Positions 1,199 to 23,192 of a stretch of 24,816 bases of DNA are shown here, piece after piece. How positions within the stretch are numbered: the first letter of the stretch is position 1; the number at the start of each line of letters is the position of its first letter. A program made the translations under genes and the position numbers. Location: IMG/VR virus record IMGVR_UViG_3300010885_034871, positions 1 to 24,816 of that record, one strand, 5' to 3'. This DNA comes from a virus. A model generated the notes under the pieces. That model was not told the DNA's origin, searched no databases, and worked only from the letters and a program-made list of their open reading frames with translations.

Positions 1199-1218
1199 GG
1201 CCCGTCGTGAGACGCGCC
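1199..1218 (+). promoter_or_regulatory. 5'-UTR hairpin, copy A (upstream of scaffold gene)
   Basis: The arms GGCCCGTC and GACGCGCC pair at 7 of 8 positions around the loop GTGA, which is a GNRA-type tetraloop. The element ends 25 nt before the scaffold ATG. The same arms, base for base, recur at 2181-2201 and 3840-3860. Copies A and B also share a following CTTCCC and GGAACCT. The repetition and placement are seen directly; a function as an RNA structure or protein-binding site is inference. Confidence 0.6.
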
Positions 1219-1243
1219 TTCCCTTAGATGGAACCTACTCAAA

Positions 1244-2164
1244 ATGGAAAACGACGCGACCAATCCGGTCGACGTTGAGGACGATGCTGTCCTCGACGCT
1301 CCGGAAGTCGAGGCGACGTCCTACAGCGGCGACACCTCAGAGGCGGAAACCGATGGAGCCCCGGAAGACGAGGGCCAACCGGAGGACGATACCGAGGAAG
1401 TGGATTGGGACGGTACCAAGTACCGGATCCCCAAGGCGCTGCGACCCGGCTTGCTCATGCAGGCTGACTACACCCGAAAGACGCAGGAGCTTGCCGAGCA
1501 AAGGCGGAACGTTGAGCAGCACGTCCAAGCGCTGAACCAACGGGCCGAGCTGGAGCAGGCAACCCTCGAACACCGGGTGAACCTGAGAACGGTGGAGCAG
1601 CAGCTTCAGCAGTTCTCCGGCACCGACTGGTCCAACTATTCGGCTCAGTACGGTGCGGACGCCACAGCCGCGGCTATGGCCTCCTGGCAGCAGTACAGGG
1701 ACGCGAAAGCCGAACTTGAAGGCGCCATCGCGAAGACCGAGACCGAAACCCGGCAGATCAGCGAGCGCAGCAGCGCCAACGCGATTGCCCAGGCCGATCA
1801 GGCTCTGTCGCGAGAGATCGAGGGCTGGTCCCCTCAGCTCGTTCAGGACCTTGCCGGATACGCTGCCGAGACCTTCGGCATCACCCCGCAAGAGCTTCGG
1901 GACAGCGTCGTCAACCCGGACGGCACCCCAGACACCCGGACCTTCAAGGTCCTGGCACGTTTGCACAAGGCCGAGACGGAACTGGCGAAACTGAAGGCCA
2001 GCCAGACCAAGGCGCAGAACGCCGAGAAGGTCGCAGCAGTCACCCCCGCCAAGGCCGTTGGCCAGCGGGCGGGCGGGTACCAGCCCGGCCTGAACGACCA
2101 GCTACCGATCGACGAGTGGATGCGCCGTCGCAACGCCGAGCGAGCGAGAGCCGCCGGGCGCTGA
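1244..2164 (+). CDS. Capsid scaffolding protein
   Basis: This 306-residue protein lies between portal and coat, the usual scaffold position. Residues 1-52 are strongly acidic. A short conserved-looking block follows (WDGTKYRIPKALRPG, then MQADYTRKTQELAEQRR), which is typical of phage scaffolds. Residues ~80-180 are charged and Gln-rich with coiled-coil character, and the C-terminus is basic (EWMRRRNAERARAAGR), as expected for the coat-binding tail of a P22-type scaffold. The ATG at 1244 has only a weak ribosome site (a GGAA-type sequence about 11 nt upstream). The leader contains hairpin copy A. Family assignment rests on composition, motif and synteny, not on a database match. Confidence 0.85.
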   Translation: MENDATNPVDVEDDAVLDAPEVEATSYSGDTSEAETDGAPEDEGQPEDDTEEVDWDGTKYRIPKALRPGLLMQADYTRKTQELAEQRRNVEQHVQALNQRAELEQATLEHRVNLRTVEQQLQQFSGTDWSNYSAQYGADATAAAMASWQQYRDAKAELEGAIAKTETETRQISERSSANAIAQADQALSREIEGWSPQLVQDLAGYAAETFGITPQELRDSVVNPDGTPDTRTFKVLARLHKAETELAKLKASQTKAQNAEKVAAVTPAKAVGQRAGGYQPGLNDQLPIDEWMRRRNAERARAAGR

Positions 2165-2180
2165 CCCCCAACAACATCAC

Positions 2181-2201
2181 GGCCCGTCGAGATGACGCGC
2201 C
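2181..2201 (+). promoter_or_regulatory. 5'-UTR hairpin, copy B (upstream of coat gene)
   Basis: This copy has the same arms as A (GGCCCGTC, GACGCGCC) around a 5-nt loop GAGAT, and ends 21 nt before the coat GTG. Just after it, TTCC (2202-2205) can pair with GGAA (2212-2215), which is part of the coat Shine-Dalgarno sequence. A second small helix could therefore mask the ribosome site. Confidence 0.6.
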
Positions 2202-2222
2202 TTCCCAAGAAGGAACCTGATC

Positions 2223-3425
2223 GTGGCTAATACGATCCTCACTCCGACAATGGTCACGCGTGAAGCGCTGGCCGTTCTCCACCAGAAGCTGAACTTCGTC
2301 GGCAACGTCAACCGCACCTACGATGACAGCTTCGCCCAGGATGGCGCCAAGATCGGCTCTACCCTGAAGATCCGCCTGCCGAACCAGTACACGCTTCGGT
2401 CTGGCGCCACCCTGTCGGCTCAGGACACCTCAGAACAGAGCGTGGATCTGGCGGTCGCCACCCAGAAGGGTGTTGACCTGAACTTCACCTCGACGGACCT
2501 CACCCTGTCCCTGCAGGACTTCAGCGCCCGCATCCTGGAGCCGGCCATGTCGGTTCTCGCGGCGGGTATTGAAGCTGACGCCCTCTCGATGGCCACTGAC
2601 GTCTATCAGTCGGTGTGGAACGGCGGCGCTGCGGCCACCTTCCAGCGGGTTCTTGCCGGTCGCAAGATCATGCAGGACGCCCTCGCCCCCATGAACGACC
2701 GCAATGCCCTGCTTAACACGCAGGACAATGTGGACCTCGTGGACGCGCTCAAGGGCCTGTTCAACGACCAGACCAGCCTGAGCAAGCAATACCGCGAAGG
2801 CTTCATGGGTCGGACGGCGGGCTACGACTTCAGCGAAAACACGCTGATCCCGACTTTCACCCGTGGCGCCGGCAACACCGCCTATACCACCAGCACCCAA
2901 ACCAGCACTCTGGCCACCGATGGCACGGCTTACGCCGCTGTTACCGTGGCTTCCGGCTCTGGCGCTCTGGTGAAGGGTGACGTGTTCACCATCGGCAACG
3001 TGTTCAAGGTGCACCCGGAGTCCAAGGTCTCCATGGGCATCCTTCAGCAGTTCGTGGTGACGGCGGCCTACGCGGGCGGTGCCGGTTCTGTGACCATCTC
3101 CCCCAGCATCGTCCTGGGTGGTGGTCGCCAGAACTGCATCATCCCGACCACCTCGGCAACGGCGGCAATCAGCTTCCTCGGCACCGCCTCGACTGCCGTT
3201 GGCACGTCGCTGCTGTTCCAAAAGGACGCCTTCGCCTTCGCCACTGCCGACCTGGTCATGCCGAAGGGTGTGGACTTTGCCTCGCGGCAGGTTCTCGACG
3301 GCATCTCCATGCGGATTGTGCGCCAGTACGACATCAACAACGACAAGTTCCCGACCCGTCTTGATGTCCTCTACGGCTACAAAACCATCCGTCCGCAACT
3401 GGCGGTTCGCCTCCACAACAACTGA
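2223..3425 (+). CDS. Major capsid protein, P22 coat (gp5) family
   Basis: The 400-residue product starts MANTILTPTMVTREALAVLH and continues with the KIGSTLKIRLPNQYTLRSG region, the N-terminal signature I associate with P22-type HK97-fold coat proteins. The length is close to P22 gp5 (430). The start is a GTG at 2223, supported by AAGGA about 8 nt upstream. The protein forms the T=7-type shell with the scaffold encoded just before. Upstream lies hairpin copy B and downstream a 9-bp stem-loop, so the most abundant virion mRNA segment is bracketed by structures. The middle region (residues ~215-330) is rich in Thr, Ala and Gly and probably holds the inserted surface domain. No sign of damage. 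Confidence 0.92.
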   Translation: MANTILTPTMVTREALAVLHQKLNFVGNVNRTYDDSFAQDGAKIGSTLKIRLPNQYTLRSGATLSAQDTSEQSVDLAVATQKGVDLNFTSTDLTLSLQDFSARILEPAMSVLAAGIEADALSMATDVYQSVWNGGAAATFQRVLAGRKIMQDALAPMNDRNALLNTQDNVDLVDALKGLFNDQTSLSKQYREGFMGRTAGYDFSENTLIPTFTRGAGNTAYTTSTQTSTLATDGTAYAAVTVASGSGALVKGDVFTIGNVFKVHPESKVSMGILQQFVVTAAYAGGAGSVTISPSIVLGGGRQNCIIPTTSATAAISFLGTASTAVGTSLLFQKDAFAFATADLVMPKGVDFASRQVLDGISMRIVRQYDINNDKFPTRLDVLYGYKTIRPQLAVRLHNN

Positions 3426-3433
3426 TGAGCAAG

Positions 3434-3457
3434 GGGGAGGGGTTAGCGCCTCTCCCC
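3434..3457 (+). terminator. Stem-loop after coat gene (terminator-like, no U-tract)
   Basis: GGGGAGGGG (3434-3442) pairs with CCTCTCCCC (3449-3457) in a 9-bp stem with one G-U pair and loop TTAGCG. No run of T follows, so efficient Rho-independent termination is doubtful. It could be a partial terminator, an mRNA 3'-end stabiliser or a processing site between the coat and the next small gene. Confidence 0.5.
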
Positions 3458-3486
3458 TGAGCCTTCTCAACTGAAGGAGACGCCCG

Positions 3487-3798
3487 ATGGGTGCAACGAT
3501 CAATGAAGACCGGTTCGGGGTGGTCACTTTCACCTTCGACCCGGCATCAGTGGCTGCGGCCACTTCCGCTGAACAGACCGTCACCGTCTCCGGCTTGAAG
3601 ACCGGCGATGTGGTGGTCCTCAGCAAGCCCACGGCGACGGCTGGCGTTGGCATTGTCAACGCCCGCGTGTCGGCGGCGAACACGCTGGCCGTGACCTTCG
3701 TCAACGCCACGGCCTCGTCTGTGGACCCGGCTTCCGAGACCTACACGCTGTTCTGGTTCCGACCGGAAAAGACGGTCTCCGGCGTGGTCAACCCGTAA
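3487..3798 (+). CDS. Small virion protein (putative capsid decoration protein)
   Basis: This 103-residue protein follows the coat gene and has a good ribosome site (AAGGAGA, 6 nt before the ATG at 3487). The sequence is all-beta in character, with alternating Val/Thr stretches (EQTVTVSGLKTGDVVVL, NTLAVTFVNAT). It has no signal peptide or membrane segment, and its acidic-aromatic C-terminus reads TLFWFRPEK. Small beta-sandwich proteins directly downstream of coat genes are often head decoration or Ig-like surface proteins, and I infer that role from position and composition. It sits alone between two stem-loops (3434-3457 and 3804-3833), which suggests its expression is tuned separately. I do not recognise a specific family. 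Confidence 0.7.
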   Translation: MGATINEDRFGVVTFTFDPASVAAATSAEQTVTVSGLKTGDVVVLSKPTATAGVGIVNARVSAANTLAVTFVNATASSVDPASETYTLFWFRPEKTVSGVVNP

Positions 3799-3803
3799 CC
3801 GGA

Positions 3804-3833
3804 CGGCGGGGGCTTCGGCTCCCGCCGCTCTTT
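3804..3833 (+). terminator. Rho-independent terminator with UUCG tetraloop
   Basis: CGGCGGGGGC (3804-3813) pairs with GCTCCCGCCG (3818-3827) over 10 bp including one G-U pair, closed by TTCG. CTCTTTCC follows. This is the strongest intrinsic-terminator shape in the late region. It lies between the head genes and the remaining virion genes, so read-through or antitermination would be needed for tail gene expression. Confidence 0.75.
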
Positions 3834-3839
3834 CCATTT

Positions 3840-3860
3840 GGCCCGTCGAGATGACGCGCC
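3840..3860 (+). promoter_or_regulatory. 5'-UTR hairpin, copy C (upstream of the 197-residue virion gene)
   Basis: This copy is identical over 21 bases to copy B, with arms GGCCCGTC/GACGCGCC and loop GAGAT. It ends 23 nt before the GTG at 3884 and begins 12 nt after the terminator stem. Its place right after a terminator would also suit a promoter or operator role, although no ordinary -35/-10 pair is evident. Confidence 0.6.
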
Positions 3861-3883: not shown

Positions 3884-4477
3884 GTGCCCAACGCCTTCCC
3901 CATCCTGCGTGACGGAACCCGCCAGCTTGCCGTAAACAGCGGCGCTGGGTCCAACTTCACCGTTCCTTCGGCGGATAACGAGCCGGAGCGCAATACCTAC
4001 CGCTCGTTTGCCTTCGGCCTGGCCCCAACGGGCGCGGTCAATGACCTGGTCGCCCTCGGTGGATCTGCCACCAAGCTGATCCGCCTGAAGGGCGTGATTG
4101 TGTCGGGCACGGCTACGGCGGCGACCAACGTCCCGATCTACATTTTCAAGCGGACGGCGGCCTATGTCGGCGGCACTGCCACCACCATCAGCCGAGTGTC
4201 GGCGGACACGGACGATCCGGTTTCGACGGCAAGCTTGGTCCACTACGCCACGGCAGGCGCTACGGCTGGCACCGGAACGATGCTCGACGGTTGCCGCCTG
4301 AACCTGGCCCCGGCGGCAAACGGCGGCATTGACCGCTTCCTGTTTCAGTACACCTGGCAGAACGACAAGGCCCCAAACCTTCGCGGCGTGACTGAGTTCA
4401 TCGGCGTGGGCCTGAACGGAACCACCTTCCCTGCCGGCGGCGGCCTTGATGTCGCTCTGGTCTGGACGGAGGAATAA
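3884..4477 (+). CDS. Hypothetical virion structural protein (197 aa)
   Basis: Translation starts at GTG 3884, decided by GGAGG about 6 nt upstream. The product begins MPNAFPILRDGTRQLAVNSG. It is rich in Ala, Thr and Gly and predominantly beta in character, with no transmembrane segment. It ends in a short acidic tail (VALVWTEE). It lies between the coat/decoration genes and the head-tail adaptor. Proteins of this size and composition in that slot are often minor head or head-fibre proteins, but I do not recognise this one. Its leader carries hairpin copy C, so it belongs to the same regulatory set as scaffold and coat. Confidence 0.75.
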   Translation: MPNAFPILRDGTRQLAVNSGAGSNFTVPSADNEPERNTYRSFAFGLAPTGAVNDLVALGGSATKLIRLKGVIVSGTATAATNVPIYIFKRTAAYVGGTATTISRVSADTDDPVSTASLVHYATAGATAGTGTMLDGCRLNLAPAANGGIDRFLFQYTWQNDKAPNLRGVTEFIGVGLNGTTFPAGGGLDVALVWTEE

Positions 4478-19407: not shown

Positions 19408-20476
<1,069 letters not shown>

Positions 20477-21283: not shown

Positions 21284-21543
21284 CGTGCAGTCTCCTTTGC
21301 GGTTTCCCGATCACCGACCCCGGCCACGCCTTCAGCACCGCTCGGGCGAAAGGTGCGGGCTTCCTCCAAGGTCAATTCGGCCAGCACAAACCCGGCCTCG
21401 ATGTCCTGGATGATGCTGGCCACGCGGTCGGTGTCGTCCAGTTCCCCGGCGCGGATGGGTCGGCTGAGGACGTTGGCCTGAGCAGGCGACAGGCGCTGGA
21501 TGGCGCGTTCGCGGGCTAGGCGTTGGATGATGTCGGCGGTCAT
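21280..21543 (-). CDS. Small hypothetical protein (87 aa)
   Basis: Starts at ATG 21543 in a 4-bp overlap with the methyltransferase stop and ends in a 4-bp overlap with the pentapeptide gene. The sequence is helical and charged (TADIIQRLARERAIQRLSPAQANVLSRPIRAGELDDTDRVASIIQDIEAGFVLAELTLEEARTF), without membrane segment or metal motif. Its coupling to the methyltransferase may mean a helper role, but I see no motif that shows it. Confidence 0.6.
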   Translation of the reverse strand: MTADIIQRLARERAIQRLSPAQANVLSRPIRAGELDDTDRVASIIQDIEAGFVLAELTLEEARTFRPSGAEGVAGVGDRETAKETAR

Positions 21544-23192
21544 GCGACCCTCTGGTTCAGGTGGAGGTTTTCAACGGCGGCGATCCGGCGACCGATCCAG
21601 GCCATGACCGGCACGGCCATGCTGTTCCCCAGGGCCTTGTATCGCGGGCCGTCTGAGGCGGGCTTGCCGCGGTAGGGGATAGCGGTCCAGCCGTCCGGGA
21701 AGCCCTGTAGGCGCTCGCACTCGGTCGGGGTCAGGCGGCGGACTTGGAGGTGCGGGCCGACAACCGCCGGGGTCTGGCAGCGTTGAAGTTGCGCCGTGTC
21801 CTGGGGGTCCAGCCCTCGGCAATCCCCGCCGGATTGCCAGTCAAACGCCTGCACCACACCGCGCTCCTCACCGCAACGCGGGCACTCCGCAGGGGCAAGA
21901 CCGCCGACGCCGGTGGCGTAAGGGTCCGCAAACGACTCCCCGCACGCCTTGCACTCGTAAAGCGGAGTGCCGATCACAACCGCTCCACTACCTTGCCCCG
22001 AGCCGTCTTCGCTCCCGTCGTGGCCATCTGCCCGCAGCGTGTGGAAGACCTCGCCCGTCGCGCAGAGGGCCACGTGCATCCGGCTTTCCTTTGAGAGCGT
22101 GGAGGCCGGGAGCTCAGGCTCAACCCGCGTCCGGTTGGCGGCGCTGGTGATCTGGGCAAGGTCAAAAGCCACGGCCTGCGGGACCGTTCGGGCCTCCAGC
22201 GTGTAAGCGGCACCATCCGCTCTGAACCCCGCCCCATCTGGGCCTGCGTTCGGGTTTTCGCAGATGGCGCGTTCTTGGATGGCAAAGGGCTGGACGACAT
22301 AGTCCCCGCCCTGATTGCCCCCGACCGGGGACGTCATCACGAGCTGGGCGATATCCGTCTCGCGGGCCTTGTAGTCCTTGCCGCTGTTCATCGACATGAT
22401 TGAGAAGGCGACGGGCTCAACCAGAAACGTCTCGCTCTCGAAATCCAGTCGGCCGTGCGGGCTGTTACACGCCACCCTGGCCGTCGCAACGTCGATTGCG
22501 CCAGCCGTGTTGTTCCCGCCAAAGGCGACCGCCACTAAGGGGTCCTGTCCTCGGGTGTCTCCGGTTCGCTCGACGCCCCGGCCACTTGCGACAAGGCTTG
22601 GTGCAACATCGGCGGAAGTGCCTTTCCCCGCCGTTCGGCTCGGCGGAGCATCCCCGCGCAGGCTTTGCCGCTCAAAAAGTACCGCCGCGGCAGGGCGCCA
22701 GTCTCCAAGGTGTCCGACAACGAAGACACGGCGGCGTCGCTGGGCCACTCCAAAGAACTGAGCGTCAAGAACTCGATAGGCGAACCCATACCCGAGCTGG
22801 ACCATGCCCCCGAGTATGGAACCAAAGTCCCGTCCTCCGTTGGATGACAAGACGCCGGGGACGTTCTCCCAAACCAGCCACCGGGGCCGCAGTCGGTCAG
22901 CCAGCCTAAGATATTCGAGGGCCAGGTTACCGCGGTCGTCATCCAATCCGCCTCGGAGGCCTGCGATGCTGAAGGACTGACAGGGGGTTCCGCCGACCAG
23001 AAGGTCAATTGGCCGGTAGTCGCCGTCCTGGATCGTCGTGAAGTCGCCATGTAGGGGCACCTCTGGGAAGCGGTGCGCCAGGACGGCGCGGGGGAAGGCG
23101 TCAATCTCGGAAAAGAATGAGGGCGTCCAGCCGAGCGGGTGCCAAGCGGCAGACGCGGCCTCGATGCCGCTGCACACGGAGCCGTAGATCAT
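21540..23192 (-). CDS. DNA (cytosine-5-)methyltransferase with long, zinc-ribbon-containing recognition region
   Basis: The 550-residue protein carries the C5 motifs in order. Motif I is SVCSGIEAASAAW (5-17) and motif IV is GGTPCQSFS with catalytic Cys71. Motif VI is ENVPG (109-113), motif VIII is QRRRRVFVVG (151-160), motif IX is RRLTPTECERLQGFPDGW (~485-502) and motif X is RYKALGNSMAVPV (517-529). Between VIII and IX lies an unusually long (~320 residues) target-recognition region with several diverged units beginning VAF. It ends with a zinc-ribbon-like pair of CxxC motifs at Cys414/417 and Cys437/440. No restriction enzyme is adjacent other than the HNH gene. A likely role is protecting phage DNA against host restriction. 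Confidence 0.92.
   Translation of the reverse strand: MIYGSVCSGIEAASAAWHPLGWTPSFFSEIDAFPRAVLAHRFPEVPLHGDFTTIQDGDYRPIDLLVGGTPCQSFSIAGLRGGLDDDRGNLALEYLRLADRLRPRWLVWENVPGVLSSNGGRDFGSILGGMVQLGYGFAYRVLDAQFFGVAQRRRRVFVVGHLGDWRPAAAVLFERQSLRGDAPPSRTAGKGTSADVAPSLVASGRGVERTGDTRGQDPLVAVAFGGNNTAGAIDVATARVACNSPHGRLDFESETFLVEPVAFSIMSMNSGKDYKARETDIAQLVMTSPVGGNQGGDYVVQPFAIQERAICENPNAGPDGAGFRADGAAYTLEARTVPQAVAFDLAQITSAANRTRVEPELPASTLSKESRMHVALCATGEVFHTLRADGHDGSEDGSGQGSGAVVIGTPLYECKACGESFADPYATGVGGLAPAECPRCGEERGVVQAFDWQSGGDCRGLDPQDTAQLQRCQTPAVVGPHLQVRRLTPTECERLQGFPDGWTAIPYRGKPASDGPRYKALGNSMAVPVMAWIGRRIAAVENLHLNQRVA

Follow-up and report, generated by a model that had tools for sequence, protein, structure and literature searches.

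What are the three closely similar hairpins that precede the scaffold gene, the coat gene and the gene for a 197-residue protein in the IMG/VR virus record IMGVR_UViG_3300010885_034871, and what might read them? In the window (the whole 24.8-kb virus record), these hairpins, termed P1 here, are almost certainly members of an RNA family with a conserved, covarying structure, as judged from sequence comparison, and in architecture they are like helix 93 (H93) of 23S ribosomal RNA (rRNA). A probability of roughly 0.5 is given to the reading that P1 is an H93-mimicking leader bound by the pseudouridine synthase RluB, which would autoregulate rluB and would have been borrowed by phages as a brake on virion genes.

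The pattern GGCCCGTC-N3-7-GACGCGCC (N represents any nucleotide) has exactly three matches in the window, all on the + strand, and none in 100 shuffles, which confirms the positions of the three hairpins in the first-pass annotation of this DNA. The spacing of 21–25 nucleotides (nt) to the start codons claimed there was measured as 25, 21 and 23 nt, and the loops (GTGA in copy A, GAGAT in copies B and C) and the kept C.C mismatch are as it described, while its scaffold and coat genes match phrog_3927 and phrog_283 (major head protein), respectively, in PHROGs. The features are as follows, where R1 is a covariance model from 18 copies and SD is the Shine-Dalgarno sequence.

1199..1218, + strand: P1 hairpin, copy A (GGC-C-CGTC GTGA GACG-C-GCC), ending 25 nt before the scaffold start; R1 score 35.1 bits
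1219..1233, + strand: TTCCC (1219-1223) and GGAA/SD (1230-1233), pairable (P2), from the sequence, the fold, and YCCC and SD kept in the alignment (Y represents a pyrimidine)
1244..2164, + strand: scaffold gene, 306 amino acids, ATG at 1244; phrog_3927, 1.3e-22
2181..2201, + strand: P1 hairpin, copy B, GAGAT loop, ending 21 nt before the coat start; R1 score 33.2 bits
2202..2215, + strand: TTCCC (2202-2206) and GGAA/SD (2212-2215), from the sequence and the alignment
2223..3425, + strand: major capsid (P22-type coat) gene, 400 amino acids, GTG at 2223; phrog_283, 1.5e-75; P22 coat proteins in named phages
3840..3860, + strand: P1 hairpin, copy C, GAGAT loop, ending 23 nt before the gene of the 197-residue protein; R1 score 24.8 bits
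3861..3877, + strand: CCATCTC and SD GGAGG of copy C, from the sequence
3884..4477, + strand: gene of the 197-residue protein downstream of copy C, GTG at 3884; without a PHROG match

The CTTCCC...GGAACCT tails ascribed to copies A and B are present, while copy C has CCATCTC...GGAG instead. The folding energies of the three hairpins are unremarkable (z about -0.9 to -1.8), and the evidence for structure is comparative because the folding energy of a single sequence is not informative. The covariance-model search of relatives that the annotation had proposed was run with R1, and the top-scoring matches down to the onset of noise all lay on the sense strand, on scaffold and coat leaders. Among 80 relatives examined upstream of the coat gene, the same architecture recurs in many with different letters: an apical helix of 4–5 base pairs, a mismatch whose 3' member is C (C.C or A.C), 2–3 basal pairs, YCCC and an SD. 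In consensus, P1 has a loop of GNGA or GNGA+Y on seven Watson-Crick pairs that are interrupted by one 1x1 mismatch (usually C.C); YCCC and the SD come next, and the start codon mostly lies 21–25 nt from the hairpin.

Across 82 non-redundant copies, two-sided changes occur in 6/8 pairs, and covariation scores 0.153 where shuffled alignments give 0.046 ± 0.006; none of the slid registers of the alignment comes near the score of the true one. A set of 145 curated copies retains the GNGA(Y) loop in 139, YCCC in 138 and one mismatch in 143 (C.C at pair 5 in 128), and the interval from stem to start is at most 27 nt in 126, where most of the longer ones hold an inserted second hairpin. Compensated arms are also seen in second copies that the model detected in contigs gathered by their arm sequences (CGCU/AGCG, CGCA/UGCG, CGAC/GUCG and GCC/GGC). 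Comparison supports the cis-acting RNA family that had been proposed from one sequence: it is tied to start codons, its stem shows compensatory changes, and it lies next to a ribosome site that is able to pair. The pairing of TTCC with that site is upheld in part: UCCC/GAAGGA becomes UCUC/GAAAGA in L005, L035 and L056 (UCC/GGA to UCU/AGA), and in L007, L011, L032, L039 and L055 YCCC and the SD are separated by an additional hairpin, which together suggest that the two strands pair with each other; several U-to-G changes are uncompensated.

No plausible match to the element was found in an Rfam scan (4227 families), and no paper on such an element was found in a literature search, in line with the first-pass annotation, which knew of no described element with these arms. 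P1 is not an intrinsic terminator, as its stem leads into YCCC and the SD with no T run, and an alternative pairing of its 5' arm with GGAGCC after the SD, seen in folding, is not preserved where the arms differ (L315, L316 and L319). Tandem GNGA hairpins stand before one gene in L311 (1480/1502), L104 (2168/2224), L306 (587/620) and L181 (2435/2492), suggesting that the P1 unit can be duplicated.

The element is carried far beyond P22-type phages. Many loci were gathered by a scan for the two arms, and some also by TTCCC, so those letters are ascertained in them, while their downstream genes, SD position and additional model-found copies are free of that ascertainment. In these pattern-gathered contigs, more than 50 sites scored strongly with R1, nearly all directly before a virion gene. 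By clustering and PHROGs, the downstream genes encode head proteins (P22-type coat, HK97-type (phrog_10/617), lambda gpE-type (phrog_29), phrog_264 and phrog_1005), other capsid-module proteins (decoration protein (phrog_49) and scaffold), tail proteins (Mu-type sheath (phrog_165), tube (phrog_185) and major tail proteins (phrog_158, 807 and 290)), and further a tail chaperone (phrog_313) and a tail fibre. Matches are present in 33/34 whole phage records, with 1–4 in each, and the phages that carry the element, from hosts in Rhizobiales and Caulobacterales, are of podovirus, siphovirus and myovirus type; no real copy was found in named phage isolates. A search for a shared phage-encoded reader in 17 element-bearing phage contigs (some in part) gave no candidate, the widest families being integrase-like (8) and HK97 capsid (7). 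A family of small, putatively GcrA-like proteins (GcrA is a cell-cycle regulator) is common to four element-bearing phages (contigs of L101, L174, L004 and L022; records G695, G709, G718 and G719). P22-type prophages of Phenylobacterium relatives (L036-L038, L044, L050-L054, L208, L211, L241 and L256) are without P1, and the leader of their coat gene contains a different conserved hairpin, CCGAGCACGCG...CGCGCCTCGG.

Among bacterial genomes, element matches were found in 14/398 Rhizobiales, 14/200 Caulobacterales and 2/399 genomes spread over the phylum, the last two both lying within the alphaproteobacterial sets already. The strong Rhizobiales matches sit before prophage-type head and tail genes, and host housekeeping genes were rejected as carriers there. 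In one Caulobacterales genome (L369, 1501), a weak element-like hairpin with a perfect stem and a 7-nt loop precedes a dodecin-like gene of 69 amino acids, which is probably a coincidence.

One cellular gene stands apart. A model from phage copies only (R2) matched leaders of a chromosomal pseudouridine synthase gene, rluB, in four genomes, and rluB is divergent from tadA in the loci read. The protein is RluB rather than RluF, as it matches PDB 4lab at 1.2e-45 versus 3dh3 at 3e-22, and RluB is the best match in NCBIfam. With R3, a model from nine rluB leaders, 200 Caulobacterales genomes gave 15 matches at E<=1.5e-7; every one is an rluB leader, and six of them were not part of the seed. Below these, the first real matches lie at head and tail genes of prophages, and no other host gene recurs. 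rluB is the only cellular gene that repeatedly carries the element, being found with it in 15/200 Caulobacterales. RluB is a 23S U2605 pseudouridine synthase with an S4 domain, whose substrate is H93, and since the one cellular gene with this leader encodes the enzyme for the H93 hairpin, RluB is a candidate reader of P1, with about an even chance of being the right one.

The substrate of RluB is the 23S stem-loop 2587-2607, in which seven Watson-Crick pairs carry a loop of four nucleotides and A2602 is bulged out; the S4 domain contacts the loop end (PMC3919597). The 23S H93 segment is GAACGTCGTGAGACAGTTCGGTCCC, with the loop GUGA, and P1 is GCCCGTCGTGAGACGCGCCATTCCC, the two sharing CGTCGTGAGAC. 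P1 has in common with this stem-loop (PMC3919597) the GUGA loop, the CGUC/GACG apical pairs (A2602 removed), the seven Watson-Crick pairs, one irregularity on the 3' strand and CCC after the stem on its 3' side. Its CGUC-GUGA-GACG cap is that of H93 minus A2602, the single irregularity lies one pair lower, and CCC is at the same offset. Within a 2.4-kb 23S stretch, the phage consensus matches H93 best (17/26; equalled by 16/400 shuffles), and H93 is also the best 23S match for the rluB leaders tested, one of which was equalled by 117/400 shuffles. P1 differs in its mRNA-leader location, in a 1x1 mismatch where the A2602 bulge sits, and in having no U equivalent to 2605, which is present in no phage copy (a U at 2604 is present in only two). 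It thus fails as a RluB substrate proper and, because that U is missing, would be bound unmodified.

Each copy would then be a translational leader RNA, in which P1 mimics H93 directly 5' of YCCC...SD, and RluB would bind P1 as a non-modifiable pseudo-substrate, occluding the SD site. Free RluB would autoregulate rluB by feedback through the H93 mimic, and temperate phages would have borrowed the site to hold back the translation of virion genes in a way that titration can relieve, with leaky virion mRNA kept silent until strong late transcription, or capture of RluB by nascent 23S rRNA, titrates RluB away. As an autogenous leader mimicking rRNA should, the putative leader is found ahead of the gene that encodes the H93-binding protein itself, in 15/200 Caulobacterales. 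Repression is favoured over activation as the sign of control. A literature search found no paper on RluB autoregulation.

Several observations weigh against this assignment to RluB. The rluB leader was found in only those 15/200 Caulobacterales, although Rhizobiales prophages carry the element; it was found neither at 30 Rhizobiales rluB loci nor in 260 genomes across the class, and covariation within the rluB leader set is weak. Taken by itself, the agreement of P1 with H93 in sequence is modest, as seen from the shuffles, P1 carries a mismatch in place of the bulge, and the bulge-contacting Glu135 of Escherichia coli is Ala in the Caulobacterales RluB aligned, so that the binding mode is not to be assumed from E. 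coli. The pairing of the SD with YCCC is supported only in part, and RluB does not explain P0, a second hairpin present on many copies.

P0 consists of a stem, CUUNGGCAA and the complementary stem', and lies a few nucleotides 5' of P1 in many non-P22 phages; the window copies are without it. Its stem covaries strongly (5/5 pairs; 0.790 versus 0.180 ± 0.041). It is found before head and tail genes of siphovirus-type phages (e.g. L307, L315, L319, L098, L117, L134 and L170), and a variant (stem, GCGGGAC.., stem') precedes Mu-type sheath and tube genes. An Rfam scan of one P0 example gave no match, and P0 was rejected as a further 23S mimic, as its loop is absent from the 23S stretch examined.

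The alternative that survives best, which we consider unlikely, is a leader that acts on translation or mRNA stability and has a different host factor as its reader (another S4-domain or 50S assembly protein, a ribosomal protein, an RNA chaperone or an RNase), where rluB simply has the leader too. The element is common to unrelated phages without a common phage reader, its kept mismatch and loop imply specific recognition, and P0 hints at a second partner, all of which this alternative accommodates; against it stands that the sole cellular gene found repeatedly encodes a binder of the H93 hairpin. Distinctly less probable is an intrinsic expression element without a reader, whose role on highly expressed genes would be to shield the SD against translation or folding upstream of it, or to protect the message. 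P1 does sit on the most abundant virion proteins, with 1–4 copies per phage record, and other relatives bear different hairpins at the same place, but a stabiliser should not need the C.C mismatch that almost every copy retains, nor the GNGA loop type and the invariant C-G/G-C step; as the mismatch is kept although a repaired stem would be more stable, recognition rather than mere stability is suggested.

Autoregulation by the coat or scaffold protein, which the first-pass annotation had suggested as setting the coat:scaffold ratio, fits the window copies before scaffold and coat and the established post-transcriptional control by P22 scaffold of its own synthesis, but it is very improbable here and is ruled out as a general explanation, because copies precede non-homologous virion genes in unrelated phages (capsid genes of the HK97, lambda and other types, tail tubes and sheaths) as well as host rluB. 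Nor are the copies remnants of gene duplication, as the downstream genes are unrelated. A DNA-level site (a phage RNA polymerase promoter or an operator palindrome; a DNA operator had also been raised earlier) would account for repetition before several late genes but has hardly any probability, since sense orientation, a loop of 4 or 5 nt, the kept mismatch and a start codon at fixed spacing speak for an RNA-level element, and no conserved promoter-like sequence was seen upstream, where P0 is found instead.

Around copy C, a terminator-like stem, GGCGGGGGC TTCG GCTCCCGCC, followed by GCTCTTT, lies at window 3805-3833, between the gene of a 103-residue protein and the hairpin, so that copy C may stand first on a transcript of its own or depend on read-through. 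Equivalents of this copy were met otherwise only in the close relatives L004 and L201. The 103-residue protein (window 3487-3798) follows the coat, is without a PHROG match and is a candidate decoration protein by position. On the - strand, window 19445-20476 and 21540-23192 hold integrase-like and DNA cytosine methyltransferase-like genes, respectively, as read from sequence, and these suggest a temperate phage.

Ribosomal-protein leaders that mimic rRNA (e.g. L1, L10, S8 and S15) mediate autogenous control and, like the H93-like leader of rluB, place an rRNA-like hairpin beside the SD of an rRNA-binding protein's gene, with presumed feedback repression; here, in contrast, an rRNA-modifying enzyme is encoded, and unrelated phages bear the same site on virion genes. 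ErmC is likewise an rRNA-modifying enzyme, with presumed control of its own mRNA (ermC) via an rRNA-like site, but it is a methyltransferase of another host, acts on a different RNA and has no known phage counterpart. P22 scaffolding autoregulation shares the post-transcriptional level and the gene module; to our knowledge it has no rRNA-like hairpin, and P1 is not module-specific. The intercistronic CUUCGG hairpins of T4 likewise lie close to starts in phage mRNAs but have a different loop and no conserved mismatch, and extend beyond virion genes. We know of no description of one leader RNA that unrelated phages place on capsid, tail and sheath genes without homology to one another and that one host gene carries too.

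Loss of RluB usually has mild effects, and the present comparison suggests a regulatory job for this rRNA-modifying enzyme. With slightly less confidence than the H93-mimic leader itself, RluB may be an mRNA regulator acting via an unmodifiable H93 mimic that phages captured, tying abundant virion genes to the state of ribosome assembly and to mRNA dose. P1 can also be used directly to flag major virion genes in phage contigs that lack annotation, and it is a testable candidate for the control of the mRNAs of the costliest proteins in phages of Alphaproteobacteria, where a host ribosome-maturation enzyme would be a possible gatekeeper of virion production.

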